Shown here: piece by piece, positions 1-41,811 of the stretch
How the letters are laid out: each line of letters begins with the position of its first letter
Position numbering within the stretch: the first letter of the stretch is position 1
IMG/VR virus record: IMGVR_UViG_3300018416_001991
Span: 1-44,638 of that record
Length of the DNA: 44,638 nt
Strand: one strand, 5' to 3'
Source: a virus
The notes under the pieces: generated by a model
The model's database searches: none
The model's input: the letters and a program-made list of their open reading frames with translations, nothing else
Told to the model about the DNA's origin: nothing
Made by a program: the position numbers and the translations under genes

Positions 1-759
1 CATACCAAAATTTGCATCTGCTAACGAAATAAAGTCACAACCGTTTTTGCCGACCCATTCTAATTCATCATATACTCTGTTAAGACAAAACTTTTTAACT
101 TTGTTATATGTTAAACTGCCCCAATCGCAAAATGTACATTGATAAGGACAACCTCTATTTGTTTCAAGTGTGACATTCCATCTGACTTCTGGATGTTTTG
201 CCATCAAATCTTTAAATACATCTGTTAAATATGGACTTGGTATTTCATCTAATTCATTGATACGTTCTGGTTCTCCTGTTCTAACAGTTTTACCATCTAC
301 ATTAATAAGTAAACCCGGTATATGTGTAAAGTCTGGCTTATCGTTTTTTAATTCTTCTAAGATTGCTTTTGCTGAACGTTCTCCCTCTTGTACTACGACA
401 ACATCTATATAGGGAAACTTTTCAAAGAACTCTGGGTCAGTAACCGGGGGTTCAGGACCACCTGCAAAAATAAAGATGTCTGGATTTGATAATTTTAATT
501 CTCTACCAAGTACGTGATTATATGCACGATTCCAAATGTATGTAGAAAATCCTACGACATCACTATCGGCTAATGTTTTAATTGCTTCTTCGATAGGATC
601 TCTGCGCCATATAAACTCACCCAACTCATAATGCTGGTTGATAGAATCAAATTGATTCACATAACTCCAAACAATGCCCGGTGAGTATGGCAAATAATAT
701 GCATTATACTCTTTGGGTCCTTGTTGAAAGTTAGGGTTTACAAAACTGACTTTTTTCAA
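1..759 (-). CDS. B12-binding-type radical SAM protein, N-terminal 253 residues (gene runs off the window)
   Basis: The reading frame is open from a TTG codon to the window edge, so the C-terminus is missing. The start is TTG at 757-759: GAGG lies five bases upstream, and the protein then begins MKKVSFVNPNFQQG, the usual opening of cobalamin-binding radical SAM enzymes. Residues 1-130 look like the B12-binding Rossmann-type half (VVGFSTYIWN near 68-77, FAGGPEPP near 98-105). The classic DxHxxG cobalamin ligand motif is not visible, as in many members of this superfamily. The radical SAM cluster motif CxxxCxxC is C204, C208 and C211 (NRGCPYQCTFC), followed by a DWG. Family knowledge: these enzymes reductively cleave S-adenosylmethionine, and many methylate or rearrange unreactive carbons. 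The gene overlaps the upstream hydrolase gene by 29 bases, so translation is probably coupled. The substrate cannot be read from the sequence. Confidence 0.85.
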   Translation of the reverse strand, partial: MKKVSFVNPNFQQGPKEYNAYYLPYSPGIVWSYVNQFDSINQHYELGEFIWRRDPIEEAIKTLADSDVVGFSTYIWNRAYNHVLGRELKLSNPDIFIFAGGPEPPVTDPEFFEKFPYIDVVVVQEGERSAKAILEELKNDKPDFTHIPGLLINVDGKTVRTGEPERINELDEIPSPYLTDVFKDLMAKHPEVRWNVTLETNRGCPYQCTFCDWGSLTYNKVKKFCLNRVYDELEWVGKNGCDFISLADANFGM

Positions 760-1696
760 TGTAACCTCGTTTGTTAATAAATTTTGCTAACTCGTCAGCA
801 ATAACTCTGTAACCTTTAATAGTAGGATGTGCTCCGTCATCATTAGTAAGATACTCTGAATGTGTACTTAGGTTTCTTGGATTATATATTTCATTAAATC
901 CTCCCCAATGTATACTTGCTGGTTTGGAAATCAAACCATCTAAGTCTACTAATTTTTCCATAAACGCAACGTACTCTACATCTGCATCATTGTGCAGATA
1001 ACAAGACCAATCAAATTGTGATACTAACGGCCCTGCATATTCTATTAACCAATTCTGTATACCGTCATGCCAATTTTTAGAATCATGCATACGTTGATTA
1101 AATGCATTGGCTAAAATAATTTTAAAATTATGTGCTTTAGCCCATGATTGTAAATTTAATAGTGCTGTCATTGTCATACATGCTACAAATTGTTCACTCC
1201 ATAATTCACGTGCATAACAATTCCAAAATTTATAATCTCCTTGATCTGATTCCATAGGCCAAGCAGTGCGCCACTTTTCATGTTTAAAATGACCTTTGTT
1301 GTATCCATCTGGTTCTTTAAATCCCCAATGATCCATTGGTCTTGTTTGAAAGACATCAAATCTTTCAAATCCAGTTAGCATCATAATTACAATACCTTCA
1401 GAATCATTAAAATCATAATTATTAGCAAAGTGTAATTGATTAACGGCGGCTGTATTTCCAATACCCTTGATTCCTAAATTTATAGATTTATATTCAGGAA
1501 AATGATATTTTGTTAATTGATTAACCCAACTGTTTTCTAATTCATGTTCACGTAAGTAATAATCCGTGTCAGGTTGTCCTTTTTGTCCGGGTCTAAGTTG
1601 CGTATACCCACCGTGTGCGTCTACAACTTCTTTTGGATATCCACCTTCTCCTTGAGTCCAACTACAGCCTAAGCCAATTATATACTTTTGTTTCAT
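731..1696 (-). CDS. SGNH/GDSL-like hydrolase, 321 aa
   Basis: The N-terminus reads YIIGLGCSWTQGEG, a block I GDSL-like motif in which Ser12 would be the nucleophile. The C-terminus has DDGAHPTIKGY with Asp287 and His290, matching the DxxH of block V in SGNH hydrolases. Members of this family remove acyl groups (for example O-acetyl) from sugars or lipids, and are common beside polysaccharide and glycosylation genes. No signal peptide is visible, so the protein should act in the cytoplasm or on the virion. The ATG start gives a compact N-terminus that leads straight into the first strand. The gene is preceded by the small lysine-rich gene, and its 3' end overlaps the B12-type radical SAM gene by 29 bases. 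Esterase activity and sugar substrate are inferred. Confidence 0.7.
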   Translation of the reverse strand: MKQKYIIGLGCSWTQGEGGYPKEVVDAHGGYTQLRPGQKGQPDTDYYLREHELENSWVNQLTKYHFPEYKSINLGIKGIGNTAAVNQLHFANNYDFNDSEGIVIMMLTGFERFDVFQTRPMDHWGFKEPDGYNKGHFKHEKWRTAWPMESDQGDYKFWNCYARELWSEQFVACMTMTALLNLQSWAKAHNFKIILANAFNQRMHDSKNWHDGIQNWLIEYAGPLVSQFDWSCYLHNDADVEYVAFMEKLVDLDGLISKPASIHWGGFNEIYNPRNLSTHSEYLTNDDGAHPTIKGYRVIADELAKFINKRGYIEKSQFCKP

Positions 1697-1707
1697 GCAC
1701 TATTACT

Positions 1708-1983
1708 TCACTTTTTAGCAGTCTTACGAGGCGCTTTTTTCTTTTTGGTAACAGTTTTTTTAACCGAAGAGTTTTGCACACCAGGTGTTTTAGGATCAGT
1801 GTCTTTAAACTTACCCTTAGCACTTTTCTTAACTTTTACGTATGCTTCATCAACGTTAGGTGTTGACTTATCATCACCTTTATATTTACCTTTTGCATCT
1901 CTATTTCTAACAACGACCCAGTCTTCTTCTACTGGTGCTGGGCCAAGAGTAAAGAATGATTTTACTTTTTTCCAAAAACTCAT
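1708..1983 (-). CDS. Small lysine-rich basic protein, 91 aa
   Basis: I do not recognise a family. The start at 1983 (MSFWKKVKSFF) is chosen over an in-frame ATG four codons upstream, because a GGAGA Shine-Dalgarno sequence lies seven bases before it and overlaps the upstream ATG. The first 15 residues could form an amphipathic helix. Two similar KGKYK/KGKFK segments follow (DAKGKYKGDDKSTPNVDEAYVKV and SAKGKFKDTDPKTPGV, roughly residues 29-70), suggesting an internal duplication. The last 20 residues are almost all Lys, Thr, Ala and Arg (KKTVTKKKKAPRKTAKK), like a histone H1 tail. Nucleic-acid or polyanion binding is a reasonable inference, not shown. A late-promoter-like AATAAATA lies about 33 bases upstream, so this gene may start a new transcript. 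Confidence 0.65.
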   Translation of the reverse strand: MSFWKKVKSFFTLGPAPVEEDWVVVRNRDAKGKYKGDDKSTPNVDEAYVKVKKSAKGKFKDTDPKTPGVQNSSVKKTVTKKKKAPRKTAKK

Positions 1984-2016
1984 AATAATCTCCATTAATT
2001 AATGTGTTCTAACATC

Positions 2017-2024
2017 TATTTATT
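2017..2024 (-). promoter_or_regulatory. T4-type late promoter core AATAAATA
   Basis: The minus strand reads GAATAAATAGATGTT in the gap upstream of the small lysine-rich gene. It differs from the T4 late consensus TATAAATA only at the first base. A start site some six bases downstream would leave a leader that includes the GGAGA ribosome-binding site. Confidence 0.5.
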
Positions 2025-2032
2025 CTATGATG

Positions 2033-2046
2033 GGTTTGCACAAACC
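2033..2046. other. Perfect 6-bp inverted repeat GGTTTG-CA-CAAACC (possible stem-loop)
   Basis: The two arms GGTTTG and CAAACC are separated by two bases. Because a 2-base loop is strained, a 5-bp stem with a 4-base loop is more realistic. On the plus strand four T residues follow; on the minus strand four A residues precede and no T-run follows. It is therefore not a convincing terminator for the minus-strand genes. It lies between the stop of the 434-aa gene and the late-promoter-like site. Confidence 0.35.
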
Positions 2047-2052
2047 TTTTAA

Positions 2053-2100
2053 CTATCTACCAAACCCTCTTATCCAAGCCCGTTTAGCAGTAAGAGACTT
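2053..2100 (-). other. In-frame coding-like extension after an amber stop (15 codons)
   Basis: Directly after the TAG stop of the 434-aa gene the same frame stays open for 15 codons, KSLTAKRAWIRGFGR, then a second TAG. The composition looks protein-like rather than random. It could be a readthrough extension, a remnant of a longer C-terminus, or chance. No start codon in this frame would let it be a separate gene. Confidence 0.25.
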
Positions 2101-3405
2101 CTATGTTTCATTATTACTTCCCCATATCTGTTCTAAACTTTCATCAACAGAAAAGTAATTTTGGTAGCGGTCCCACAAATCACCGCCGACATAAGATGAG
2201 TCATTTCTATAATGTATGACTACTTCTCTAAAAAAATCTAACACCCAATGAAGTTCACTACCTGTATTATCCATATGATCAGGAGTTAAAACATTGTCTA
2301 ACTTTTCTAATTTATATTCAAGAGGATCGGGTGAATTTATTCCAATGTGATGCATAATGGATTCTGTAGTTATACCGCTTCGCACAGTTGCCATATACCT
2401 AAAAAGATTACGTTGTGTTTTTGCTTTTACACTTTCCCACAATCGTTTATAATCATCAGGTGATTTATATATTTCTGACAAATGTTTTATGTTATTTACA
2501 ATAGCATTAATGCGTTGTCTATAATCAGGCCAATCATCAAAACCATAATCAAATATTTCATCATAAAGTTCTATACCCTTTTCTTTTTCTAACCATCGAT
2601 GATAGCCAGGGGCGCCAACAACTAAAAATGGTTTGTGTGCGAACAAAGGTTTACATGTTTTTTCTGACAAATAGAATTCACCTTCTTCTATTATACTTTC
2701 TGTTACAATATCAATAACACCTCTGTGGTAACTATGGGGCAATGAATTTGGCCGAAACTGCCAGCCAGAATTTAATTTAAAATCGTGTTCTGCTGGATGT
2801 GGATCTTTTAAAGGCATAAGATAAGGCACATTTCCAATTTCTTCCCAATGTTCTGGTTGCCAGTCCGGCTGTTTTGGATATTCAACTGTAAAGTGACGAT
2901 ACGTAATTATACCTAAATCTTGTAGACTTTCACCGAATAATTTATTAACAGTATAACTTCTATAATGATCCGGTCTGTTGTTATAACATGTAAATAAAAG
3001 ATCAGGCGAGTAGTCATCACCAATCGGTGTTAAAGTTTTGTCTTCTTGTAAGGGACAAAAATAAGCAAGAACGGTGTGATAATTAATTATGTCATAAGTT
3101 GAACATACTATTGGTACTACATAATCAGGATAATCATATTGGTATTGTTTACATGATGTAAATGCATAGATTTTTTTTCCTGTTTTGTTACACCATTCTT
3201 CTAATTCAGATATTGCAATACCATATATACATTTAATGTCTGATTCACTGCCACTGGCTATGATAAATCCTGCAGGATCATGTTGTTCAATTATTTTATT
3301 AAGATAATCTTTAACTTGTTGCCTTCTTTGCCACTTTGTATATTCATGACCTTGAACGTCAACTGCTGAAGTATTACGATGGTCTAATAAACACCATTTA
3401 GACAT
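2101..3405 (-). CDS. Glycosyltransferase-like protein, 434 aa
   Basis: I do not recognise a named family with certainty. The core segment EGEFYLSEKTCKPLFAHKPF followed by LVVGAPGYHRWL (near residues 240-275) resembles the C-terminal donor-binding region of GT10 fucosyltransferase-like enzymes (typically SEKxxxPLxxxxPFxxxG). A motif LLFTCYNNRPDHYRS near residue 135 recurs in modified form in the 492-aa protein encoded two genes upstream (LFLTWNRRFRKHRTS), as does the EKxxKPxxxxxPF block, so the two are probably distant paralogues. The gene overlaps the epimerase gene by eight bases, which fits a shared role in building or attaching a GDP-activated sugar. Donor and acceptor are unknown. The stop is TAG and is followed by an open in-frame stretch. 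Confidence 0.55.
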   Translation of the reverse strand: MSKWCLLDHRNTSAVDVQGHEYTKWQRRQQVKDYLNKIIEQHDPAGFIIASGSESDIKCIYGIAISELEEWCNKTGKKIYAFTSCKQYQYDYPDYVVPIVCSTYDIINYHTVLAYFCPLQEDKTLTPIGDDYSPDLLFTCYNNRPDHYRSYTVNKLFGESLQDLGIITYRHFTVEYPKQPDWQPEHWEEIGNVPYLMPLKDPHPAEHDFKLNSGWQFRPNSLPHSYHRGVIDIVTESIIEEGEFYLSEKTCKPLFAHKPFLVVGAPGYHRWLEKEKGIELYDEIFDYGFDDWPDYRQRINAIVNNIKHLSEIYKSPDDYKRLWESVKAKTQRNLFRYMATVRSGITTESIMHHIGINSPDPLEYKLEKLDNVLTPDHMDNTGSELHWVLDFFREVVIHYRNDSSYVGGDLWDRYQNYFSVDESLEQIWGSNNET

Positions 3406-4378
3406 CTTCTACACCGGATTCAATTTGTCCGCAAATCCAGTTATAAGTCTTTTCAATTCCAGTTTCTAAGTCTTCATCTGGCGCCCAACCAATTGTTTCT
3501 TTAATTAAATTGTTATCAGATGTGCGACCCATAACACCTCGGGGTCCATCGATATTTTTAATTGTAACTCTTTTGTTTGATATCTCTGCGATGAGGTGTA
3601 CTAATTCATTAATAGATATTTTACGTGTACTACCCAAGTTCACAGGCTCTGTGAGGTCACTTTCCATGATGCGTTGTATACCTTCGACACATTCGTCAAT
3701 AAACAAAAATGAACGTGTTTGATTGCCCGGGCCCCATACTTCGATAACGCCATCGTTATCAACCATAGCAACTTTTCGGCATAAGGCAGCCGGCGCTTTT
3801 TCTTTCCCGTTGTTCCAAGAACCTTGAGGGCCAAAGATGTTGTGAAATCTTGCAATTTTCACATTCATATTATAACATCTTCCGTATGCTAAGTAAAGCC
3901 TTTCTGAAAATAATTTTTCCCAACCATAATCTGAATCTGGGTTTGCTGGATATGCTGTATGTTCTGCTAGATCAGGATTGTCAGGGTCTAGTTGATTGTG
4001 TTCAGGGTACATACATGCACTTGAACTATAAAATATCTTTTTAACATTGTATTTACGAGCAGACTCTAATACATTTAAATTAATTGTAGCAGAGTTATGC
4101 ATAATATCTGCATCGTTTTCACCTACAAATATATAACCTGCGCCTCCCATGTCTGCTGCCAATTGATACACTTCATCAAACTCATGTTGCGAAAAAATAA
4201 AATCAACCATTTCTGCTTGACGTAAATCTTGTTTATAAAAATCATTTGCTCTTGTGTCTTCATATAAAGGAAACTTAAGATCAACACCTATGACTGTGTG
4301 ACCTTGTGCTTTTAGGTCGTTGACTAAATGTGTGCCGATGAATCCACCTGCTCCACATACTAATATTGTTTTATTCAA
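3398..4378 (-). CDS. GDP-mannose 3,5-epimerase-like short-chain dehydrogenase, 326 aa
   Basis: The protein is an extended-SDR nucleotide-sugar epimerase. The NAD-binding glycine motif is GAGGFIG at 9-15. The catalytic Tyr and Lys are Y151 and K155 (YGWEK). Several stretches match GDP-mannose 3,5-epimerase specifically rather than GDP-fucose synthase or UDP-sugar epimerases: AADMGGAG (75-81), SSSACMYPE with C122, RFHNIFGPQGSW, GKEKAPAALCRK (191-202), QTRSFLFIDECVEG (220-233) and GRTSDNNLIKETIGWAP. In plant GME the equivalent Cys and Lys are the acid/base pair for epimerisation. The expected reaction converts GDP-D-mannose to GDP-L-galactose or GDP-L-gulose. The start is TTG, chosen because AGGAG precedes it at normal spacing. 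The gene overlaps the preceding one by eight bases and the following one by eight. Confidence 0.9.
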   Translation of the reverse strand: MNKTILVCGAGGFIGTHLVNDLKAQGHTVIGVDLKFPLYEDTRANDFYKQDLRQAEMVDFIFSQHEFDEVYQLAADMGGAGYIFVGENDADIMHNSATINLNVLESARKYNVKKIFYSSSACMYPEHNQLDPDNPDLAEHTAYPANPDSDYGWEKLFSERLYLAYGRCYNMNVKIARFHNIFGPQGSWNNGKEKAPAALCRKVAMVDNDGVIEVWGPGNQTRSFLFIDECVEGIQRIMESDLTEPVNLGSTRKISINELVHLIAEISNKRVTIKNIDGPRGVMGRTSDNNLIKETIGWAPDEDLETGIEKTYNWICGQIESGVEDV

Positions 4379-5849
4379 AATGACATCTCCTGTCTGTAGT
4401 ACACCAATGGGTGTAGTCTTGGTTAAAGTTATTGGTTATGTGTTCATATATGTTATTTACTACTGCAATAGATCCAGGATCTTTAAACATTTGATAATTA
4501 TGTTCTATGATAGGTTTGACTCTACGTTTAAAATCTAAAATTTGATCTGGTGTCCAAGATGCAATTTCTTGTAATACTTTTTCTATAGCAATAAATCGTT
4601 TACTTGGTTCTTCAATCGTATCATATTCTTCATTCCAAAACTCACTAAATGTTTTAAAGCCTAAATCTCTTAGCCCTTGTACAGAACCTGCTACACCTAT
4701 TATAATAAAAGGATGTTTATTATACATAGGTTTAAATGATTTTTCTGTTAACGTACATTCATCTACATTAAAGTTTGTTTCTGTAATCAAAGATATCAAT
4801 GATTGTTGATAATAAGTCTTTGTGTACCCATAGTCTTCGCACATTTTATTAATATCTTTTTCTCCATCAATTTCTAATGGGCAACGATCAATAAATCTTT
4901 GTGCTACTTCTTCTGGTATGTCAAGGTCTAAACAATCATATAATCGTATGTGGTTACCATTACGTTGATTGTTTATCTCCTCATTTACTGTGTGGTGTTG
5001 CATTTCACCATCTATTTTAGCAAAACTCATAAGTGATCGTTCAATTAAGTTGTTCTTTTCTAATATTAATGCTAAACTAGTTCTGTGTTTTCTAAATCGT
5101 CTGTTCCAAGTCAAAAACAATTTATCAGGAACATATGAATCGTCATAAGGTGTTTCTTTGAACTCTGAAATATCTTCACCGTGATGAGATGGATCATCTT
5201 TTTTCATTTCAGTATAAAAATTATAAAAAATTTCACGTGAGGACGCATACGGAATAACATGCATTCTATGCTCTCTGTCATTGCCTATGCGATGTCTTTT
5301 ACAAAACTTTTCATAAACTGTACTTGCATTTACAGTACCTGTCAAGTATATAATTTTATACATGGGTATTTGATGTCCACTATGAAAATATGAAAACATT
5401 GCATGTAGTTCTGTATCTGACATAAATGCTTCTACACTATGATCGATTAATATATAACCGTTTTTTGTAGAAACCATATGTATCAACCATTGTGGCATAT
5501 GTGAAAATTCTAATACACCTGAATCTTTAATAAAATATGATGCAAAAGGTATTCTCCATGTCATAGAAAAAGGGTAAATGAACGGAGTCATTGCATCTGC
5601 TCCGATACCTTGCACTGGTGTCAACTCAAATTTATCTTTTGCTTTAGAGAACTGTTTATTCCAAACATCATCAGACCAAAAATGGCGTGATGTCATGTTT
5701 GGATTTGTGCCTTCTGCTTCAGCAGACATAGTTAGAATGTTTGGTAGTTCAGTATTCCATACGGGACCTTTGGGGCCGAACCAACTATAGACAACTTTTA
5801 CTTTGTCGTCTTGGCTATGCGATATGACTGATCGGAATTTTTCGTTCAC
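4371..5849 (-). CDS. Glycosyltransferase-like protein, 492 aa
   Basis: I do not recognise a curated family. The C-terminal half contains CTLTEKSFKPMYNKHPFIII followed by GVAGS, which resembles the SEKxxKPxxxxxPFxxxG donor-site block of GT10-like transferases and is shared with the 434-aa protein. LFLTWNRRFRKHRTSLAL in the middle matches the LFTCYNNRPDHYRS segment of that protein. The N-terminus (KVKVVYSWFGPKGPVW) looks like a first Rossmann strand. I prefer the GTG start at 5847-5849, which has AGGAGAG upstream. A further in-frame GTG at 5900 would add 17 residues but has no ribosome-binding site. The gene overlaps the radical SAM gene before it by 35 bases and the epimerase gene after it by eight. 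A role in sugar transfer is inferred. Confidence 0.55.
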   Translation of the reverse strand: MNEKFRSVISHSQDDKVKVVYSWFGPKGPVWNTELPNILTMSAEAEGTNPNMTSRHFWSDDVWNKQFSKAKDKFELTPVQGIGADAMTPFIYPFSMTWRIPFASYFIKDSGVLEFSHMPQWLIHMVSTKNGYILIDHSVEAFMSDTELHAMFSYFHSGHQIPMYKIIYLTGTVNASTVYEKFCKRHRIGNDREHRMHVIPYASSREIFYNFYTEMKKDDPSHHGEDISEFKETPYDDSYVPDKLFLTWNRRFRKHRTSLALILEKNNLIERSLMSFAKIDGEMQHHTVNEEINNQRNGNHIRLYDCLDLDIPEEVAQRFIDRCPLEIDGEKDINKMCEDYGYTKTYYQQSLISLITETNFNVDECTLTEKSFKPMYNKHPFIIIGVAGSVQGLRDLGFKTFSEFWNEEYDTIEEPSKRFIAIEKVLQEIASWTPDQILDFKRRVKPIIEHNYQMFKDPGSIAVVNNIYEHITNNFNQDYTHWCTTDRRCHFE

Positions 5850-6828
5850 TTTTAACGGTCTCTCCTGTCCATTGTTTAGGTATGATAATATCTGTACCAC
5901 ACATGCACATTTCTTTGTAGCATGTAATTTCTTTAGGACCTATATTTTTAATGTCTTCTAATATATGTCCTACATCTCCGCCCATACCACAACTTGCTAA
6001 ACTCATTGTACCTACAGGATTAATAAAAATACAATCGCCTACATTGCATTTCCAACCACTAAAGAAGTTCTGACTATTTACTATGATATCATTTGCATTA
6101 CATACTTGCTCTGTGCCATCGTCATAACGATTGTATGATACAGTCATCTCTGTTCTTTTGTTTGGCTTAGGAACACTTTGATGTGTTTCTATGTTATGTT
6201 CTTCAATAAACTTTACTTTCTCTGGATCACTGTACTTCCATGGACCGGTTACATGTGATAGTTCATCGTAGAGAGGTGTCCATTCTAAAAAGTAATTAGG
6301 CATTACTTCTTTTAATTCGTTACCGAACTCGACACACTCCCAAAATCTTTCTTCGTGTAATAATATTTTTGTACTTAAGTAGTTAACGTTCTCACATAAC
6401 CATAGTGAGTTTTCTTTGTATCTGTCTTTGTTTACTTGTTCTATGTGTAGACTAGCAACAATGTCATCAAATAGATATGCATGTTTTTGCCACCATTTCA
6501 AAGGTCTTGACAAATTTGTATTAACTGCTAAAGTAGCATGTGGTAGATTTTCATACAACCATTCACAGATAGGAATAAAGTTACGCCATGCTGTTGGCTC
6601 TCCACCAGAGAAAAAGAATTTAAAGTTTTTGTACCCTGCTTTCTTATAACGTTTAACTATTTCATCTAGGTTGTTGATGTAAACGTCTAAGTTTCCGTTG
6701 TTAGGATTATCGCCCGCCCAGTTACCAGGATTACAATAACTACAACTGAAGTTGCAAAAGTTATTGACCTGCCATGTTATTGCTAAGTATGGCTCAGGTG
6801 CAAATACTTCTCTTAACTCTCTGCCCAC
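5815..6828 (-). CDS. Radical SAM protein with SPASM-like cysteine-rich C-terminus, 337 aa
   Basis: The iron-sulfur motif CxxxCxxC is C25, C29 and C32 (NNFCNFSCSYCNPG), and the SAM-binding GGEP follows at 75-78 (FFFSGGEPTAW). The C-terminal third has Cys at about 261, 266, 280, 303, 308 and 310 (SGWKCNVGDC, LASCGMGG, ITCYKEMCMCG). This is like the auxiliary cluster region of SPASM or twitch enzymes, which often modify peptides or sugars. Unlike the four neighbours it has no N-terminal twitch domain: the SAM motif starts almost at once. The start is GTG, chosen because AAGGA lies about nine bases upstream; it overlaps the end of the previous gene by 16 bases. The substrate is unknown. Confidence 0.88.
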   Translation of the reverse strand: MGRELREVFAPEPYLAITWQVNNFCNFSCSYCNPGNWAGDNPNNGNLDVYINNLDEIVKRYKKAGYKNFKFFFSGGEPTAWRNFIPICEWLYENLPHATLAVNTNLSRPLKWWQKHAYLFDDIVASLHIEQVNKDRYKENSLWLCENVNYLSTKILLHEERFWECVEFGNELKEVMPNYFLEWTPLYDELSHVTGPWKYSDPEKVKFIEEHNIETHQSVPKPNKRTEMTVSYNRYDDGTEQVCNANDIIVNSQNFFSGWKCNVGDCIFINPVGTMSLASCGMGGDVGHILEDIKNIGPKEITCYKEMCMCGTDIIIPKQWTGETVKSERKIPISHIA

Positions 6829-8093
6829 TCGTATACTTCCTTGATTTCTGGTACGATGTCTTCAAACTTTTCATCTCTATATTCATCTAGTTCGTCATTG
6901 AACTTTTTGAACTCTAGTATTCCACCTTTGTTTTCATCACCTACTGTTAAGTTATAGATGATCATTTTAAAGCCATTGTAAATGTCTACATTGTCTTTAT
7001 GTTTCTCCTGATATACACGATAGAGTTCTGCTAGTCTGCGTTTAACACTTTGTGGTAAGATCATTACGTTAGCATACCACGGGTTAGTCGCAAGATTGAA
7101 TCTTGGCGAAGAGTATTCAACATCAATAAAGCCATTGTCAACCATGTAATCCCAGAAGTCAGGAAAATCAAAGATGTTCCAAATGGATATCGTGGGAGTT
7201 ATTTGAAATTGAGCATGTGGAACCTGCTCTTTGACCTCTCTGATATTCCTGACAATTTTTTCCCAATCGGTACCTGAACGAATGCACTCTGCGACTTCGC
7301 CATGTGCATCTAAACTCGCCCAAATCTTCAATTGCGGAAACTTTTTCCAATACGCAATCAAGTCAACATTTTTCTTATAATTAAGTGTTGAAAAGTTTGT
7401 CGTATAGGTTAATTCTACTTGATCTGTTAGATCGTTTTCAATCCAATAATCTAAACACTCGTAATGCTCTGGAGTAATAACAATTTCTCCACCTGCAAAA
7501 TAAACTTCTGTAACGTCATCTAAGTAAGGCTTAAGTTTTGACATCAACGTCATTTCATCATTGTTACTGATAACAATTTTACCTTTGTTCTTAGGGAAGT
7601 ACTCATCGAATACTTCTTGTCCACGTTCATTTAAAAACTCTTGTGACCATAGTGATGAGCATGAAGGACCGCATGATCTACATTTCATATTACATATATT
7701 ACTAAAACGAATATCCATATACTTCATCTGAAACTCTTTCAGTGAGCCGTCATCGTTAGTAACATCTGCTATGTAATCAACATAGTCAAGTCCTTTACGT
7801 TTGTTATGTGACTGTCGCATAGTCCACTCGCCCATTAACTCTAAGTCATAACAACGTTTACATTCTGCTACAGGTTCATCACGCATCATCTTAGAACGTA
7901 AATCATTATACTTGTCAGAATTCATCATCTGTATAATTGATTCATCATCTCTAAGTTCTGCTGTAGGCAACTCACTGTCTGCGACACAGCAAGGCATCAC
8001 ACGTTTGTCTGGCCATGCATGAAAATGTACCCAGGGTAAAACACAGAAATGCTTACCGTTTTCGACTAGATTCTTTACTACGATCTTTTCCAT
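6813..8093 (-). CDS. N-terminal-twitch radical SAM protein, 426 aa
   Basis: It has the layout of the N-terminal twitch radical SAM family known from marine phages. An N-terminal cysteine cluster comes first, HFCVLPWVHFHAWP with C17, then MPCC at C35/C36, then ECKRC at C78/C81. The radical SAM motif CNMKCRSC follows at C134, C138 and C141. The SAM-binding turn reads FAGGEIVIT at 199-207, so the usual Pro of GGEP is Ile; this position tolerates change in the family. The N-terminal cysteines presumably hold a second iron-sulfur cluster. An ATG start lies one base after the stop of the exported-protein gene, with GGGAG upstream. It is clearly paralogous to the two genes at 8.8-11.3 kb. No substrate can be inferred from the sequence. 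Confidence 0.9.
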   Translation of the reverse strand: MEKIVVKNLVENGKHFCVLPWVHFHAWPDKRVMPCCVADSELPTAELRDDESIIQMMNSDKYNDLRSKMMRDEPVAECKRCYDLELMGEWTMRQSHNKRKGLDYVDYIADVTNDDGSLKEFQMKYMDIRFSNICNMKCRSCGPSCSSLWSQEFLNERGQEVFDEYFPKNKGKIVISNNDEMTLMSKLKPYLDDVTEVYFAGGEIVITPEHYECLDYWIENDLTDQVELTYTTNFSTLNYKKNVDLIAYWKKFPQLKIWASLDAHGEVAECIRSGTDWEKIVRNIREVKEQVPHAQFQITPTISIWNIFDFPDFWDYMVDNGFIDVEYSSPRFNLATNPWYANVMILPQSVKRRLAELYRVYQEKHKDNVDIYNGFKMIIYNLTVGDENKGGILEFKKFNDELDEYRDEKFEDIVPEIKEVYEWAES

Positions 8094-8094
8094 A

Positions 8095-8769
8095 TTAAAA
8101 CTTTACTCCCAAAGTTATATTAAAAATACTTCTTTCTATTGGATCTTTTGTATAAACATTTTTAAGACCCACTGTTACTTTATCTGTTACACTGTAATCG
8201 AATGATGTTTCGTTTCTTATGTAATCATCTTGTCCTGATTCCCATAACAACTTATTTACAAATGTAACTTTTTTGTTTAAGTTGTATGCATACCAAAGTG
8301 ATGAACGTATAATAGGTTCACTAATCTCATTTGAATTAAGGTATGCAATTGAATTTTCTATCGATGCTTTGTGATTTTCTGTTCTGAAAATTTTATATCC
8401 ATGACCCATACCTATTACGATTCTATCATTGTTATCTCTAAATTCATCGTAATCATAACTGGTAGATCCTATTACATAATGCTTTTCAGTTACAGTTCTA
8501 ATTGCTTTACCACTAGTTCTAAACTTATTAATTGTTTGCTCACTGTCTTCTGATTTGTAGGCATAGTCTGCATCAAATACTCCCTGCCATATATCTGATT
8601 CCCATTTATGATCAAACGATCCTGTGAATACAATTGACTCATCGATGTTAACAAACGTTCCACCGACTTTTGCTTTTGTTTCTGCTGATGCAGTAGGCGC
8701 TAATATAATCATTGCGGCAACTGCAAGTAATATAGTCATATCTCCTATAAATTTTAATTTCTTTTTCAT
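8095..8769 (-). CDS. Exported DUF481-like outer-membrane beta-barrel protein, 224 aa
   Basis: Residues 1-29 form a clear signal peptide: KKK at the start, a hydrophobic core (ILLAVAAMIILAP) and a TASA cleavage site before ETK. The rest alternates polar and hydrophobic residues and resembles the DUF481/YdiY-type outer-membrane family: YDYDEFRDNNDRIVIGMGHG followed by YKIF, then a segment of the kind ENSIAYLNSNE, and a final aromatic strand FNITLGVKF ending in Phe, typical of Bam-inserted barrels. The first ATG is preferred over Met11, because Met11 would remove the basic n-region and its GGAG is too close. The gene overlaps the preceding radical SAM gene by ATGA and is followed within one base by another. 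Finding it inside a phage radical SAM gene string is unusual. It may alter the host envelope during infection; this is inference. Confidence 0.78.
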   Translation of the reverse strand: MKKKLKFIGDMTILLAVAAMIILAPTASAETKAKVGGTFVNIDESIVFTGSFDHKWESDIWQGVFDADYAYKSEDSEQTINKFRTSGKAIRTVTEKHYVIGSTSYDYDEFRDNNDRIVIGMGHGYKIFRTENHKASIENSIAYLNSNEISEPIIRSSLWYAYNLNKKVTFVNKLLWESGQDDYIRNETSFDYSVTDKVTVGLKNVYTKDPIERSIFNITLGVKF

Positions 8770-10016
8770 TCTTCTAAATCTCGTAAACTATTGAGTTCTG
8801 GAAACACACTCCAGAAGTCCTCATCTCTTATTTTATCTATGGACGCAGTGTGTTGCATCATAATCTTTTTGTTATCTTGCCATGTATTATCTTCATTAGC
8901 AAAATTAACTGCATCTCTAATTAAACGTGATAAACTTGTTTTGTCACCTTCAAACTTATCAGCAAACTTTAAAGCATTCTCTGCCGCTGGCCCCTTCATT
9001 GCAGTAGGTAAACTCTTAGCACTATAGTAACTAGGATGCACAGCAAGATATAAACTATGATACCAATCTTCTGCTCTTACAATATTCTTATCTTTAAGAT
9101 ATTGATAAAACTCACCGATCATTGGGTAATTAAACATAGAGAATACTGTGTTCATTTGAAATGTTACGTAATCTAAATCTCTGAATGTCAGTAAGTTGTT
9201 TTCTACTACACCCCAGTCTGTTCCTTTACGTAACCATTCTGCTCTTTCGCCATAATGATCAACTGAACAACTTAACTCAATATTATCAAAGTGTTTCCAA
9301 AGTTCTAATATATCATGCTTCTTATATTTAATATTACTTGCGTTAGTATTATACCTTAAGACAGGTTTTTTACCACGTCTAATAAATTCTTCTAACATGA
9401 CATAATGTTCGTCTGTAATAAGTGGCTCTCCACCTGCAAAATAACATAAGTCAATATTGTCAATGTGTTCTAGTGTTTCTTCTAGTACTGTTCCTGTTTG
9501 ATCGTCTGCATGTATTAAGATAGGATGTTTAGGATCGTGGTTGGCTCGCATCTCTGCTCCCCATTGCGAACTAAACTCACTGCCACATGTGCGACATTTG
9601 AAATTACATATATTAGAGAACCTAATATCAAAGTAATGCATTCTAAAGTCATCTACTGTTCCGTCTGCTTTTGTCTGTGGTACTAATTCATCGAATCGTT
9701 TACCAAAATGTTCTTTAGAATAGTTTCTAAAACTATGTGGACCTGCTTCTTCATGTTTGTAGCAGAAATCACATACACTATTCTTTTTATCGTTTAGCAT
9801 ATCTAAACGTAATTGTTTCATTTTGTCATTGTTAAATGCTTCTTTCAATGATGTTTCTTTTGTGTTGCCAAATGGTTGTGTATAGTCATTAGAACAACAA
9901 GGATAGATATCTCCTTTAGGTGTCACGTTTAAATGCAACCAAGGAAACATACAGAATGTTTTACTTTCTTCTAATAAGTAAGTTTTGTCTACTATTGGTA
10001 TACGTTCATTGCTCAT
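8766..10016 (-). CDS. N-terminal-twitch radical SAM protein, 416 aa
   Basis: The N-terminal cluster region reads TFCMFPWLHLNVTPKG with C22, then YPCC with C40/C41, then VCDFC with C82/C85. The radical SAM motif CNFKCRTC gives C137, C141 and C144, and GGEP is at 195-198 (YFAGGEPLITDEHY). The protein is closely related to the 440-aa protein encoded just before it: RYFDIRFSNICNFKCRTCGS and YFAGGEPLITDEHY are nearly shared. The pair therefore looks like a tandem duplication that has since diverged. It starts at an ATG that overlaps the previous stop by four bases (ATGA) and ends with an ATGA overlap to the exported-protein gene. Family knowledge indicates a redox enzyme using S-adenosylmethionine; its target is unknown. 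Confidence 0.92.
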   Translation of the reverse strand: MSNERIPIVDKTYLLEESKTFCMFPWLHLNVTPKGDIYPCCSNDYTQPFGNTKETSLKEAFNNDKMKQLRLDMLNDKKNSVCDFCYKHEEAGPHSFRNYSKEHFGKRFDELVPQTKADGTVDDFRMHYFDIRFSNICNFKCRTCGSEFSSQWGAEMRANHDPKHPILIHADDQTGTVLEETLEHIDNIDLCYFAGGEPLITDEHYVMLEEFIRRGKKPVLRYNTNASNIKYKKHDILELWKHFDNIELSCSVDHYGERAEWLRKGTDWGVVENNLLTFRDLDYVTFQMNTVFSMFNYPMIGEFYQYLKDKNIVRAEDWYHSLYLAVHPSYYSAKSLPTAMKGPAAENALKFADKFEGDKTSLSRLIRDAVNFANEDNTWQDNKKIMMQHTASIDKIRDEDFWSVFPELNSLRDLEE

Positions 10017-11335
10017 GGTCGCAACGCCTTTGGTACTTTATACAATGCTGCCAACTCAGGGAAAGTAGTTAAAAAGTCTTCTCCCCTTAACGCATCTATT
10101 CTTTTTATTTCTTCTTTAAACTCTACTTCTCTTTCGTTCCAAGTATCTTTAGACATTAACCATGGAATAACCTGTTGTATTTCATTTATCTGTTCTTGTC
10201 TAAAGTTTAAATCTTTCATGTAATGCATAGTTAAATGCAACTGTTCTAGTGCTTGTTCTTTATAGCCGTCAGGCAATACATGTGAAGATAAGTGTTCTGG
10301 TGATCCCATGCTATAGAGAGTCCACACAGAACTCTCAGGCGTATAAAAATGATTGTCTATCATATACTTGTAAAAGTGAGAAATAGTCAATGCATTGAAT
10401 ATACTGTACACAGTATTCACCTGAAAATTAACATTCTTTGCTTTCTTTAATTTTTTTAAATTTGTTTCAATTGTTTTCCATTTAGTTCCGTGTCTAATGT
10501 ATTCTGCCTTTTCTCCCATATGATCAATTGATGCATAAATTTGAACTGGCTGTTCAAAATGGTCCCATAGTTTAAAAATATCACGTTTCTTATATTTAAA
10601 ATTAGATATGTTTGTATTATACCTTAATTGAATATCTGTTTTCTTTTTCTTAATCATCTCATCAATTAACATATAATGTTCATCAGTGATTAATGGCTCT
10701 CCACCTGCAAAGTATGCAACTTCAAAATTGGGAACTTGTTTTAATACTTCTAATATAAATTCTTCTCTGTTGCCTTTTTCTAACTCTATAGCATACATAG
10801 GCAACCCTGTTTGCTCACGTGATTCTAAATCTTCTTGTTCCCATTTAGAACTAAATGCACTGCCGCATGTACGACATTTAAAGTTGCAAATGTTACTAAA
10901 ACGAATATCAAAATATCTCATACGAAAGTTTACAATTCTTCCTGTATTCATATCTGTTGTTTCAATTACATCGTTAAAGTAATCAGCCCATGCTTCGTTG
11001 CTTTGTGTTCTGAAACTTGGTACACCCTGATCATCATGTTTATGGCAATTCGCACATTCAGGATTTTTGTTTCCTTTTAACATATCTAAACGCAACTTCT
11101 TCATTTTAGGAGAGTTAACTAAGTCTGCAAGACTGCTACGATTAGAGTTACCAACGCCCTGATTGTCTGCACATGATTTTGAGATGCAACAAGGAGCACC
11201 TTGTCCTGTGGGTGTAGTATGCATGTGTACCCATGGAATCATGCAGAAAGTTTCTGATCTATTAAGAAGCAAATCTTTTAGAAAGATTGCCTGCTTCTTA
11301 TCTACAGCGGGTTTGTTAGGCTTACTTGCTGGCAT
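10013..11335 (-). CDS. N-terminal-twitch radical SAM protein, 440 aa
   Basis: It opens with a charged extension (PASKPNKPAVDKKQ) and then the twitch region: TFCMIPWVHMHTTPTG with C31, APCC with C49/C50 and ECANC with C94/C97. The radical SAM motif CNFKCRTC is C150, C154 and C157, with GGEP at 211-214. The middle region FRMRYFDIRFSNIC is shared with the downstream paralogue. The gene overlaps the 466-aa gene before it by 34 bases in another frame. The ribosome-binding site is weak, so translation probably depends on coupling with the upstream gene. No fused substrate or peptide-recognition (RRE) domain is obvious. Confidence 0.92.
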   Translation of the reverse strand: MPASKPNKPAVDKKQAIFLKDLLLNRSETFCMIPWVHMHTTPTGQGAPCCISKSCADNQGVGNSNRSSLADLVNSPKMKKLRLDMLKGNKNPECANCHKHDDQGVPSFRTQSNEAWADYFNDVIETTDMNTGRIVNFRMRYFDIRFSNICNFKCRTCGSAFSSKWEQEDLESREQTGLPMYAIELEKGNREEFILEVLKQVPNFEVAYFAGGEPLITDEHYMLIDEMIKKKKTDIQLRYNTNISNFKYKKRDIFKLWDHFEQPVQIYASIDHMGEKAEYIRHGTKWKTIETNLKKLKKAKNVNFQVNTVYSIFNALTISHFYKYMIDNHFYTPESSVWTLYSMGSPEHLSSHVLPDGYKEQALEQLHLTMHYMKDLNFRQEQINEIQQVIPWLMSKDTWNEREVEFKEEIKRIDALRGEDFLTTFPELAALYKVPKALRP

Positions 11336-12702
11336 AATTTATAAAAATCCATATACTCTGGATACACTGTTAATATATCTGTTTCTCTACGATCATCTAG
11401 TTCGTTAAAGAAGTTGTAAAAATCTCTTCTACCTTCAATTAATTTGTCTTCGTCATAATGTGTATTTTCCATATAATCAACGACACGTTTGAACTTTTCA
11501 TATTCTATTGTAGTAAACTTATCACTACGTTCATTATCTACGTTGTCTTCGATAAACTTAAGTGACTCGTACATGTAAGGCATGAATTCTTCTTTAGGTA
11601 AAATATTCATATCATACTGTAAAGGTTCTTTCAAGTATGGAGTATCAAATCTAACTCTGTGTTTATCTTCTGACTTCCAATCGTACCATCCATAGATCGC
11701 ACGCCATTCTAAAAACTTTTCTAATAGACTTTTAAAGTCTGTTACTGCTAACAAATTAAAAGTACACATAAATGTAACAGGAGAGTCTGTCTCTGTTAGA
11801 TACGTATGTAAGTTCTGTTGAAAGAGTTCCAAGTCTAGTCCAGTTCTAATATATTCTGCTCGTTCTCCCCAGCAGTCTAAACTAGTAAACAATTTAAAAC
11901 TTTCTAGTTTTTCTTCGTCACACAATTTCTTTACAGAACTACTTAGTTTTTTTACTAATGCATTTTTTGTACCTAAGTTACTGTTTACATTAAGTTCTAA
12001 CCAAGGCATAGGTTCTTCATCGATTTGTTTTAGCAGTCTCCATGTTGATGTATGCATTGTTGGTTCTCCACCTGTTACACGTAAGATATTTAAGTCTTTA
12101 CGCATAGATGGCCACCACTCCCAAAACGCATCAACATATGGATTTTCTTCTTCACGTTCAAACAGTTTCATCCAATCAACATCATTTCTATGGTTCTTTA
12201 CAGTTTCAACTGGACCGAATTGTTTAATCTCACTGTGATAACTTGATGAATACTTTGGATGACAATAACCACATTTAAAGTTACACTCATTACCAAAGTT
12301 AATTTCTAAATATTCTGGATTAATGTTTTGGTCCCAAGGGCCATTAAGTGCTTGATCGAATCTTTCTTCTGTGAAAATAGAACCGTTACGAATATGTCTG
12401 TCTGAAATATAATCAGGACCCATGTCTTCAACATTCCAGCAATATTGACAACCTTCTGGTCTCTCACCTGCTAACATTTGTTTGCGTTCCATTTTCTTTT
12501 CCCAAGTATTATGTAATGCACTTGGGTTATCTTTTAATTCATGTAATGGAATTTTGTGTGGGCGAGGATGATAACAACTATGCGTTTCACCTGTTTGTAA
12601 GTACATAGTAACATGTTGCCATTTAGCCAAACAGAATGAAGGCGTTGCTTCATTTTCAACTCTTATCTGAATTGTTTTTATTCTATCTGTTTCTTTGGAC
12701 AT
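11302..12702 (-). CDS. Divergent N-terminal-twitch radical SAM protein, 466 aa
   Basis: This is the most divergent of the four twitch-type proteins. The N-terminal region has SFCLAKWQHVTMY with C24, then SCYHPRPHK with one Cys (C43) where the paralogues have two, then GCQYC with C85/C88. The radical SAM motif is CNFKCGYC at C140, C144 and C147, and GGEPTMH lies at 211-217. After GGEP the sequence includes FTSLDCWGERAEYIRTGLD, which parallels ASIDHMGEKAEYIRHG in its neighbour. The proteins thus share a common catalytic core with different pockets. The ATG start has AGAGGG seven bases upstream and shares one base with the preceding stop (TAATG). Its substrate probably differs from those of the other paralogues, which is inference from divergence. 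Confidence 0.9.
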   Translation of the reverse strand: MSKETDRIKTIQIRVENEATPSFCLAKWQHVTMYLQTGETHSCYHPRPHKIPLHELKDNPSALHNTWEKKMERKQMLAGERPEGCQYCWNVEDMGPDYISDRHIRNGSIFTEERFDQALNGPWDQNINPEYLEINFGNECNFKCGYCHPKYSSSYHSEIKQFGPVETVKNHRNDVDWMKLFEREEENPYVDAFWEWWPSMRKDLNILRVTGGEPTMHTSTWRLLKQIDEEPMPWLELNVNSNLGTKNALVKKLSSSVKKLCDEEKLESFKLFTSLDCWGERAEYIRTGLDLELFQQNLHTYLTETDSPVTFMCTFNLLAVTDFKSLLEKFLEWRAIYGWYDWKSEDKHRVRFDTPYLKEPLQYDMNILPKEEFMPYMYESLKFIEDNVDNERSDKFTTIEYEKFKRVVDYMENTHYDEDKLIEGRRDFYNFFNELDDRRETDILTVYPEYMDFYKLCQQVSLTNPL

Positions 12703-13646
12703 TACCAGCCCTCTATTTCTCTGATAATCTCCATCTCTGTCACTAGGGGACCTAGGTTTCTTTTATCTGCGTTATAATGCCTTTTGAAAAACTTTGATTG
12801 TTCAGCATCAAGCATGTTCATGGGTAAGCCCAACTTGGCTTTTAGTTCTACCCCAATTTCTTTTGCGGCTTCGATTGGGTCATTGTTCATATGCTGTTCC
12901 CACATATTCGGATAGTTATCAAACCATTGAATGTCTGTGTGTTCAAAGTCTGTTAACATTGTCATATATGTTCCCAATCTTGCGCCGTATATTGCCCAGT
13001 CACCGTTCTCTGCATCTAAGCCTACATTCTGCCATATAGTTAGATTGTTTAAATTTTTATCTGCTACTCTACCTTTAAACTCATCTACAGTTACTAATGC
13101 TCCGCGGTCTAATACCATCTTTACGCCTTCTCTAAAACCAGCACGCCATGCTTGGAATGCTGATTTGTTAGGGTAAGTAGTTGAGTAGCAATCATACATT
13201 GCCCAGTACAATGAGTCTGCTGAGTTCATCATAAAATCAACTTGAGTTGCTTCAGAACCGTCAGTATGTTCATGCGTAGTCATATTCTCTACATAAGTTT
13301 TAGTCCATGAACTCATTCCACCGTTGCCATAACGCAAACCATTAATATTGTTGATTGACTTCCATCTAAACTGTGCTTGTTGATATCTTGGGTCTTTATC
13401 TGTGAAATCTAGTTGAATGTTAAAGAAATCTTCTTCTGGTAAAGTGTCACCATCGATAAGAATAAATCTTTCCGTTTCACTTAACTCACCTGCGGCTTTG
13501 TGAGCCGCATCACTTCCTAATACGCCGTCAACTCTTTGAGCCCACGGAACCATGTTTTTAACTTGTACCCAAAATTCTTCTTTTTGTGGTTCATCGTAAC
13601 TTAAATAAATTACATCTAAGTCTGCAATATCAACAATATTACTCAT
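12702..13646 (-). CDS. GT-A-like glycosyltransferase candidate, 314 aa
   Basis: The protein opens with a Rossmann-like strand (LDVIYLSYDEP, 10-20), then DGVLGSDAAHKAA and FILIDGDTLPEEDF with Asp65-Gly66-Asp67. This layout fits a GT-A-fold glycosyltransferase, in which a DxD binds the metal and nucleotide sugar. The remainder (YGNGGMSSWTK, TDIQWFDNYPNMWEQHM) does not match a family I can name. I place the start at ATG 13644-13646 rather than the in-frame GTG five codons upstream; AGAGGTGA precedes the ATG and also overlaps the GTG. It overlaps the 51-aa gene by eight bases and the next radical SAM gene by one. Enzyme class is moderately supported; substrate is unknown. Confidence 0.6.
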   Translation of the reverse strand: MSNIVDIADLDVIYLSYDEPQKEEFWVQVKNMVPWAQRVDGVLGSDAAHKAAGELSETERFILIDGDTLPEEDFFNIQLDFTDKDPRYQQAQFRWKSINNINGLRYGNGGMSSWTKTYVENMTTHEHTDGSEATQVDFMMNSADSLYWAMYDCYSTTYPNKSAFQAWRAGFREGVKMVLDRGALVTVDEFKGRVADKNLNNLTIWQNVGLDAENGDWAIYGARLGTYMTMLTDFEHTDIQWFDNYPNMWEQHMNNDPIEAAKEIGVELKAKLGLPMNMLDAEQSKFFKRHYNADKRNLGPLVTEMEIIREIEGW

Positions 13647-41792: not shown

Positions 41793-41811
41793 AGTTTTTC
41801 CCTGTTTCAAG

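Follow-up and report, generated by a model that had tools for sequence, protein, structure and literature searches.

The virus record IMGVR_UViG_3300018416_001991 of IMG/VR, analysed here over its whole length of 44,638 bases (the window), carries at its left end a cassette of genes, all on the minus strand, that includes six radical S-adenosylmethionine (SAM) enzymes (Table 1). Starting from the right-hand end, a protein of unknown family is followed by a baseplate-wedge protein (phrog_43, E 2e-8), a gp6-type wedge protein (phrog_10646, E 1.4e-252), a virion structural protein of 6,430 residues (phrog_10938) and then, in this order, BP19, TF18, U17, U16, GTb, GTa, U14, U13 and the radical SAM region. 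A first-pass annotation, made from the bare sequence, had let the gene string end at position 12702. The string instead continues through U13 and glycosyltransferase-like genes to the fibre and baseplate genes and, at its other end, past base 1. That most junctions overlap had been read correctly: among the 13 genes from U13 to the truncated B12-type gene, 9 of the 12 junctions overlap and the remaining gaps are 1, 105 and 11 nt, counted on the longest open frames rather than mapped starts, so that some overlaps may be shorter.

All six radical SAM genes initially called from their CxxxCxxC motif are present. The motif occurs once per gene and is kept in every near-full-length viral relative (50/50 for rS1, 40/40 for rS2, 58/58 for rS3, 47/47 for rS4, 41/41 for rS5 and 35/35 for the B12-type gene), which together with the profile scores rules out chance motif matches. 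Genes rS1 to rS4 carry an N-terminal SPASM/twitch-type cysteine cluster ahead of the radical SAM core, as had been proposed. With 309-375 bits they pass the curated cut-off of 170 bits of the NCBIfam family NF033640 (N_Twi_rSAM), and the four paralogues of the first-pass annotation thus belong to a known family. To our knowledge this family has no assigned function. The Pfam SPASM cut-off is passed by rS2, rS3 and rS4, and rS1 gave no SPASM match. In contrast, rS5 lies outside the N_Twi_rSAM family (36.9 bits versus the cut-off of 170). Its description as SPASM-like comes from the conserved C-terminal cysteines (C261, C280, C303, C308 and C310, invariant in 8 sequences) and not from a match to the SPASM profile, and a profile search of the Protein Data Bank (PDB) with rS5 returned nothing at E ≤ 0.01.

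The sixth enzyme is cut by the window end. It shows the expected B12-binding domain and the start of a radical SAM domain, and the full protein, present in the nearly identical longer record (L005), has 642 residues. Its best solved relatives are TokK (284.6 bits) and CysS (167.9 bits). Domain content and class homology place it in the TokK/CysS class, at 241.8 bits over the full length versus a cut-off of 700 bits for the KedN5 subfamily (NF033712). Both this protein (L005:19258-21186) and a second cobalamin radical SAM enzyme found beyond base 1 (L080:11171-13522; see below) match the PADLOC candidate-defence model PDC-M51A, with 98 and 41 bits, probably through the common B12/radical SAM core.

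Table 1 Genes of the cassette and of the adjoining fibre side, in the order of the minus strand
Gene	Position	Strand	Assignment	Basis and remarks
TF18	17094..18311	-	Fibre-type protein, candidate acceptor	phrog_14394 virion structural protein; 24.7% Ser+Thr
U17	16124..17077	-	Ser/Thr-rich protein by fibre gene, candidate acceptor	29.7% Ser+Thr; no PHROG match
GTb	14924..15790	-	Conserved upstream gene	Glycosyltransferase-like by eye; no Pfam or PHROG match
GTa	14134..14931	-	Conserved upstream gene	Glycosyltransferase-like by eye; only unknown-function PHROGs match
U13	12702..13661	-	Possible GT-A-like glycosyltransferase	AF2 pLDDT 69; directly upstream of radical SAM array
rS1	11302..12702	-	N_Twi radical SAM	NF033640 309 bits; distinct lineage common to Bdellovibrionota
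rS2	10013..11335	-	N_Twi radical SAM	NF033640 375 bits; phage-side duplicate, in 36/47 eligible loci
rS3	8766..10016	-	N_Twi radical SAM	NF033640 362 bits; phage-side duplicate by tree
Outer-membrane protein	8095..8769	-	DUF481 outer-membrane protein, accessory	Pfam DUF481 E=1.3e-20; closest relatives only
rS4	6813..8093	-	N_Twi radical SAM	NF033640 350 bits; lineage common to Bdellovibrionota
rS5	5815..6828	-	MoaA-like radical SAM, C-terminal Cys cluster	Pfam Radical_SAM 33.3 bits (cut-off 29.5)
HypB	4371..5900	-	GT-B-fold glycosyltransferase-like	AF2 model pLDDT 75.5, 96 residues <50
Epi (GME)	3398..4378	-	GDP-mannose 3,5-epimerase homologue	2c59 E 2.9e-90, 306 bits
HypA	2101..3405	-	Probable glycosyltransferase, distant HypB relative	HypA-type rows 16-20% identical to HypB
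Lys-rich protein	1708..1995	-	Lys-rich 95-aa protein, internal repeat, not core	Two similar halves, KGKYKGDDKSTPNVDEA / KGKFKDTDPKTPGVQNS
SGNH	731..1696	-	SGNH/GDSL-like hydrolase or acyltransferase	Lipase_GDSL E=0.012, under cut-off; GCSW, DDGAHPT by eye
B12	1..759	-	Cobalamin-dependent radical SAM C-methyltransferase-like, cut by window end	B12-binding Pfam 39.7 bits (cut-off 32.1)

The first-pass annotation had taken these genes for one coordinated pathway and had named scattering in relatives as the finding that would speak against it. We therefore compared viral loci under three anchors, namely rS3 (52 loci), rS5 (best 80 of 166) and U13 (best 80 of at least 582), alongside a profile scan with rS2-rS4 (79 of at least 596). 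The fractions given below describe the nearest relatives, and eligibility refers to loci with the stated flank lengths. For the rS3 anchor, matches below 40 bits were dropped and weak ones above 40 bits can be paralogues. Among its eligible loci we found rS1 in 46/47, rS4 in 42/42, U13 in 42/43, rS5 in 35/36 and a HypB-type gene in 33/35; the GDP-mannose 3,5-epimerase (GME) gene was found in 23/33, the cobalamin radical SAM gene in 23/32, the SGNH gene in 21/32, HypA in 17/32 and rS2 in 36/47. Under the rS5 anchor, which has 33 of its 78 newly fetched loci in common with the rS3 set, rS4 was adjacent in 79/79 and rS1 and rS3 were each present in 69/69, U13 in 57/69, a downstream GT-B-type gene in 63/64, GME in 39/64, the cobalamin radical SAM gene in 36/64 and SGNH in 34/64. 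The GT-B class of the rS5 and U13 anchors pools HypA, HypB and HypC types above 50 bits, of which HypB is the one that was folded. Removal of near-copies left the rS5 picture at 43/43 for rS4, 39/39 for both rS1 and rS3, 33/39 for U13, 35/36 for GT-B and 32/36 for any cobalamin radical SAM gene.

The U13 anchor does not select for radical SAM genes, and its loci lie nearly all on other contigs (5/80 shared with the rS3 set). An rS1-type enzyme nevertheless follows U13 in 71/75 loci (65/69 without near-copies), at least three N_Twi radical SAM genes are present in 45/58 (42/53), and TF18, U17, GTb and GTa precede U13 in all 73 eligible loci. The more distant loci of this set keep the fibre block, U13 and the rS1-type gene, whereas further N_Twi genes vary in number and type and rS3 or rS5 may be missing. 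The packing is conserved as well, with gaps of at most 10 nt for rS2-rS3 in 40/40 loci, rS4-rS5 in 40/43, HypB-Epi in 23/24 and SGNH-B12 in 20/21. Scattered accessory genes were thus rejected by the co-occurrence under all three anchors, and the proposal of a coordinated unit gained support from the order and packing kept across divergent viral loci and from the recurrence of sugar chemistry. From these counts, the core in the nearer relatives is U13-rS1-(rS2)-rS3-rS4-rS5-GT-B; GME, SGNH and the cobalamin radical SAM enzyme are frequent partners, and the outer-membrane protein and the Lys-rich protein were added locally. Since GME is missing from many loci, it is not obligatory.

Several partner genes point to sugars. 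The epimerase is closest to GME among solved sugar epimerases (306 bits versus 109 bits for the next family), and its stretches SSACMYP, YGWEK and KEKAPAA align to 2c59. The conserved Cys, YxxEK and EKAPAA coincide with the catalytic residues, which we take to be Cys145, Tyr174/Lys178 and Lys217, so that the earlier assignment to GME is borne out as a predicted activity. Genes of this type are frequent in cyanophages: of 183 matching phage records, 85 are from Synechococcus phages. HypB has no Pfam match, and profiles of HypA and HypB found nothing in the PDB at E ≤ 1. Its AlphaFold2 (AF2) model gave two Foldseek matches at E ≤ 0.001, the matches listed being GT-B-fold enzymes at low TM-scores (0.21-0.37). 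Structural superposition placed the model next to EXT2 (Z 12.9 over 276 residues) and an alpha-1,3-fucosyltransferase (Z 11.6), at 8-9% identity (GT10/GT47 candidates; families absent among such fold matches are not thereby excluded). As judged from this model, HypB is a GT-B-fold glycosyltransferase-like protein. The C-terminal part of HypA matches the HypB profile at 42 bits. Of the several glycosyltransferase-like genes proposed from the bare sequence, HypB is thus backed by its predicted fold, whereas the case for U13 is weak and GTa and GTb are so classed by eye. Residues 6-175 of U13 resemble GT-A/NTP-transferase folds (Z 8.4-6.3) and its IDGD motif is conserved; no Foldseek match fell below E 0.001, no Pfam match lay above cut-off and the profile search of the PDB gave three unconvincing rows. 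For the proposed SGNH hydrolase, the motifs could be recognized by eye and the Pfam match stayed under its cut-off.

Almost from end to end, the window matches a record of 69,973 bases (G001) at 99.84-99.96% identity; this record shows the sequence past base 1, and in it the cassette extends for another ~17 kb. This stretch (L080) holds a second cobalamin radical SAM enzyme of 783 residues, a short DegT-type gene and HypC, a third GT-B-type gene with 99.7 bits to the HypB profile. A PP-loop-like gene and two further SGNH-like genes follow (all by eye; one of the latter matches DUF6071), and then come a carbamoyltransferase of the NodU/TobZ type (Pfam C-terminal domain E 2.2e-50) and a repeat protein of 1,819 residues. 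In 12 longer phage records, hand-picked among the 52 and with five downstream stretches read gene by gene, a further radical SAM frame of the cobalamin type, 740-794 residues long, and exactly one carbamoyltransferase were found in 12/12, both lying downstream of the array according to their coordinates. The nearest solved relatives of the phage carbamoyltransferase are NovN, GdmN and TobZ. The 1,819-residue protein (L080:3-5459, minus strand) consists of at least 20 repeats, mostly of 65-72 residues (FDFSWHPD...), has a C-terminus that appears U13-like by eye and has relatives in three other loci (L083, L084 and L086). Two genes on the opposite strand lie within the cassette (L080:13595-15134, plus strand), one weakly dimethylargininase/amidinotransferase-like and the other possibly, and weakly, Asp/Asn hydroxylase-like.

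Among 84,980 species genomes, a scan with rS2-rS4 picked out 23 loci. Three of them (L057, L069 and L070) appear to be phage contigs with the block inside bacterial metagenome-assembled genomes (MAGs; Rhodobacteraceae NAT686 and Rickettsiales MED657), which are likely binning contamination and not evidence of a host. Bdellovibrionales carry arrays of their own: one locus (L058) holds rS4-rS5-rSAM-rS1 and two others (L059 and L060) hold rS4-rS5-rSAM, where rSAM is a further radical SAM gene. When 368 Bdellovibrionota genomes were searched with an rS5 profile, 13 proved to have a homologue at E ≤ 1e-40. Five are strong (324-350 bits), all adjacent to rS4 and two also with rS1 nearby; eight are weaker (140-161 bits). 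Carbamoyltransferase genes occur in 10 of the 13 genomes, compared with 50 of 114 genomes sampled from the phylum. In 6 of the 13 a carbamoyltransferase lies within 6.5 kb of rS5, a limit set after looking, where 0.07 are expected from gene density (listed genome sizes sum to 44.1 Mb; P ~1.4e-10), and with near-copies merged the count is 5/12 (P ~8e-9); short contigs hide neighbours in several of these genomes. The phages and some bacteria have in common several radical SAM enzymes with an O-carbamoyltransferase; in the nearer phages this set is almost always joined by GT-B-type genes, and frequently by GME.

A maximum-likelihood tree was built from at most 12 random divergent rows per phage family together with 9 rows from Bdellovibrionota and 8 from other cells. 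It joins rS1 to Bdellovibrionota copies (100/100) and rS4 to a different set of them (98/93), while rS2 and rS3 make up a group to which no cellular sequence belongs (100/93). Long branches lead to several of the cellular sequences, and one of the rS4 rows is placed next to those from Bdellovibrionota. The likely history, as far as the tree can tell, is an old pathway of the rS1/rS4/rS5 type with a later duplication (rS2/rS3) in phages; no direction of transfer is implied.

As to the virus itself, the nearest relatives of the baseplate wedge (38427-41810) are jumbo myophages at 31-33% identity, among them Erwinia phage pEa_SNUABM_47 and Agrobacterium phage Atu_ph07 (the rows listed are phages of 310-490 kb). 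The same cassette occurs on contigs of up to 360,683, 333,115 and 244,022 bases, and a U13 relative on one of 367,104 bases. A megablast search of positions 1-12702 against phage records gave no match, and tblastn of rS1, rS5, U13 and GTa against 50,697 phage records gave none at 1e-5. With rS3, tblastn found only Vibrio phages K566 and K567 (21.8%) and a single-cell virus fragment (25.7% over half of the query). Judging from the jumbo-like wedge, the very long related contigs and these blank searches, the virus most probably belongs to the large T4-like phages, in an uncultivated lineage without a close isolate. The jumbo Vibrio phage K566, whose radical SAM protein is only ~22% identical to rS3, has its own annotated radical SAM cluster near a PagP-like lipid A acylation gene (L088, OZ196521.1 161548-178915).

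At the level of sequence, the data establish the six enzymes, their families, their close packing and deep conservation, and their links to GME, GT-B-type genes, a second cobalamin radical SAM enzyme and an O-carbamoyltransferase. Because the cobalamin enzymes resemble C-methyltransferases and radical SAM genes stand together with an O-carbamoyltransferase and with GT-B and GME genes, we favour the tailoring of a sugar or glycan, which, whatever its acceptor, we consider rather probable. The fuller proposal, at just under an even chance, is that the cassette encodes a co-expressed, largely soluble pathway for the synthesis and attachment of a sugar that is radical-tailored, C-methylated and carbamoylated. 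In such a pathway, GME would turn host GDP-mannose into a donor of the GDP-L-galactose/gulose type, and the N_Twi enzymes and rS5 may act one after another on the sugar nucleotide or the attached glycan, through radical reactions such as dehydrogenation, epimerisation or deoxygenation. The cobalamin radical SAM enzymes would C-methylate the sugar and the NodU/TobZ-type enzyme would O-carbamoylate it; HypA and HypB, and perhaps U13, GTa and GTb, would transfer it in the cytoplasm.

The acceptor would most likely be a phage protein, with a host surface glycan as the main alternative, and we put a virion acceptor forward tentatively, at roughly a one-in-three level of belief. Using a simple hydropathy test, we found no protein of at least 150 residues with four or more hydrophobic segments, and hence none of the size of the flippase or polymerase of a Wzx/Wzy O-antigen cluster, downstream of U13 in 80/80 loci (flank of at most 9 kb), and no polytopic protein in the window cassette or in L080. 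Since no flippase-sized polytopic protein is seen, the pathway looks mainly cytosolic, which fits the decoration of cytosolic virion proteins. The best candidates are U17 and TF18. Homologues of U17 have a median Ser+Thr content of 29.2% over 188 frames. The C-terminus of TF18 weakly resembles the Peptidase_G2 intramolecular chaperone domain (21.2 bits, cut-off 25), which suggests a possible autoproteolytic maturation.

Several observations weigh against this sugar pathway. Ser/Thr richness is common in fibre proteins, the fold support for U13 is weak, and a HypA/B/C-type gene lies downstream in just 36/58 U13-anchored loci (34/53 without near-copies). GME is missing from 10/33 eligible rS3-anchored and 25/64 rS5-anchored loci, and GME and SGNH drop out while rS1, rS3, rS4 and rS5 stay. 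TobZ/NodU relatives also carbamoylate non-sugars, with GdmN among the best matches, and the substrate of TokK is an antibiotic, not a sugar. In Bdellovibrionota, where carbamoyltransferases are common to begin with (the 50 of 114 genomes given above), the linkage is mostly with the weaker rS5 homologues (4/8 at 140-161 bits). Among the five strong ones, two mutual near-copies alone have a nearby carbamoyltransferase; the strong-array genomes G013 (five carbamoyltransferase matches) and G174 carry theirs elsewhere only, and one of the six linked matches, a fragment of 64.7 bits, lies where its contig ends. In one of the five downstream stretches read, that of a 333-kb relative, a protein of 167 residues with five hydrophobic segments (L084:5628-6131, plus strand) sits between an SGNH-like gene and the carbamoyltransferase, so that the distal cassette can include a membrane protein.

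This last protein also bears on the alternative that survives best, namely a remodelling of the host surface, in which the sugar would be added to the lipopolysaccharide (LPS) or another surface glycan of the infected cell and block superinfection by competing phages. SGNH-type proteins often acylate or deacylate glycans, a peripheral glycosyltransferase can use lipid-linked or LPS-core acceptors without a flippase of its own, and in the closest relatives an outer-membrane protein lies within the array. For a comparable region of pelagimyophages with glycosyltransferases and radical SAM cassettes, a modification of the host O-chain by the glycosyltransferases has been proposed, at least in the passages on that region (PMC7029224). 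Against this stand the hydropathy result downstream of U13 and the position of the genes directly behind virion fibre genes. The outer-membrane protein, named in the first-pass annotation and confirmed here as a DUF481 member, occurs in 4/42 eligible rS3-anchored loci and was rejected as a member of the core. Overall, we regard host-surface remodelling as possible and rather unlikely.

Less likely still is that the radical SAM enzymes modify a virion protein or peptide post-translationally, through crosslinks, epimerisation or C-methylation in the manner of ribosomally synthesised and post-translationally modified peptides (RiPPs), with the sugar genes forming a separate neighbouring module. 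SPASM/twitch radical SAM enzymes most often modify peptides, and the loss of GME and SGNH around a constant set of rS1, rS3, rS4 and rS5 fits this reading. Distant N_Twi homologues in three alphaproteobacterial loci of two organisms (L071 and L073 in one MAG, and L077) lie, by eye, near PqqD-like or kinase-like genes, and these neighbours point to peptides. However, no PqqD or RiPP recognition element domain was found among the 20 window proteins scanned with Pfam, a result that still allows a virion protein as substrate. The tight core (rS2-rS3 and rS4-rS5, see above) leaves little room for a precursor gene, a GT-B-type gene comes after rS5 in 63/64 loci, and a carbamoyltransferase is found in both phage and bacterial neighbourhoods. 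The Lys-rich protein has matches only in the four loci L005-L008 among those anchored on rS3, and was rejected as a conserved substrate given its restriction to close relatives.

A small-molecule or nucleotide metabolite that counters host defence, viperin-like or antibiotic-like, is very improbable as the product of the array. Its natural-product flavour (TokK/CysS-like, NovN/GdmN/TobZ-like and DegT-like genes) and weak matches to viperin profiles are set against the size of these matches, 18-34 bits confined to the radical SAM core versus an NCBIfam viperin cut-off of 180. No export gene was recognised, several genes are of glycosyltransferase type, and a viperin-like defence was rejected on the weak, core-only matches. 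Scarcely credible, finally, is a hypermodification of phage DNA in which carbamoyltransferase, glycosyltransferases and radical SAM enzymes decorate a hydroxymethylated base: HypB does resemble T4 beta-glucosyltransferase (Z 10.0), but bacterial chromosomes show a similar linkage of radical SAM and carbamoyltransferase genes, the cassette is located by fibre genes, and the sole thymidylate-synthase-family gene (6/12 records, some of them fragments) has Asn, the dUMP-type residue, at the position of residue 177 in 4/4 homologues read (PFNIA), so that a modification of the 5-hydroxymethylcytosine type was rejected.

If the proposed sugar pathway is right, it provides a pathway context for the N_Twi_rSAM family, and phages would be shown to operate radical chemistry in several steps from genes placed behind those for the fibres. 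A further step, which we consider improbable though worth stating, is that the old rS1/rS4/rS5 pathway was inherited and diversified by a clade of large phages, with rS2/rS3 duplicated on their side, and creates a new class of glycan, with the radical tailoring, C-methylation and carbamoylation proposed above, on tail-fibre proteins. Were this true, receptor-binding virion surfaces would be diversified by enzyme repertoire and not by protein sequence. The frequent occurrence of radical SAM genes in marine viruses would thereby become a hypothesis open to testing, in which the genes and their order are specified, a counterpart exists in bacteria and possible acceptors are proposed.

Compared with known systems, rS1-rS4 join NF033640 by its curated cut-off, and no solved structure matched the profile of rS2-rS4 at E ≤ 0.01. 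The cobalamin enzyme shares its domain content with TokK, CysS and KedN5, which include its best solved relatives, and differs in being a phage gene below the KedN5 cut-off. Virion glycosylation encoded by the virus itself is established for PBCV-1 and mycobacteriophages, and a PBCV-1 glycosyltransferase (2p72) is among the fold matches of U13 (Z 7.4). We know of no radical SAM tailoring in these viruses. Phages with a 5-hydroxymethylcytosine carbamoyltransferase carry an enzyme of the same Pfam family, which makes 5-carbamoyloxymethylcytosine, and on contigs with modified cytosine the thymidylate-synthase homologues mostly have Asp177, according to the relevant sections of PMC8670742; the four homologues here have Asn instead.

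A close parallel is the hypervariable host recognition cluster (HRC) of pelagimyophages, in which radical SAM cassettes come in addition to tail fibres and numerous glycosyltransferases (PMC7029224). Like the region described here, it is hypervariable and lies beside T4-like marine tail-fibre genes. The HRC is placed, with its tail fibres, between VrlC and the neck gene gp14. In the present virus a baseplate wedge, the giant virion protein and fibre-type genes lie on one side of the region. The wedge is nearest to jumbo phages (31-33%), and the HRC passages give neither an ordered core of several radical SAM genes nor a function for one. The T4-like marine genome TARA_ERS488813_N000010 resembles ours in its many radical SAM genes (12), a likeness by description only, and is presented in the context of iron-sulphur cluster proteins, without gene order or a link to sugars in the part concerned (PMC5332604). 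An enrichment of radical SAM genes and glycosyltransferases is reported for Tasman Sea phages in the corresponding part of PMC7150976, and PMC7678222 and PMC10783043 contain passing mentions in the parts considered. A literature search, mostly at the level of titles and abstracts and with few subscription journals, found no title or abstract describing this ordered cassette. The initial statement that no such system had been described thus holds for the specific ordered composition and not for radical SAM cassettes beside glycosyltransferases, which are in print, as the cited parts of PMC7029224, PMC5332604 and PMC7150976 indicate. Taken together, the system is best read as a phage-encoded type of glycan modification that makes unusually deep use of radical chemistry.

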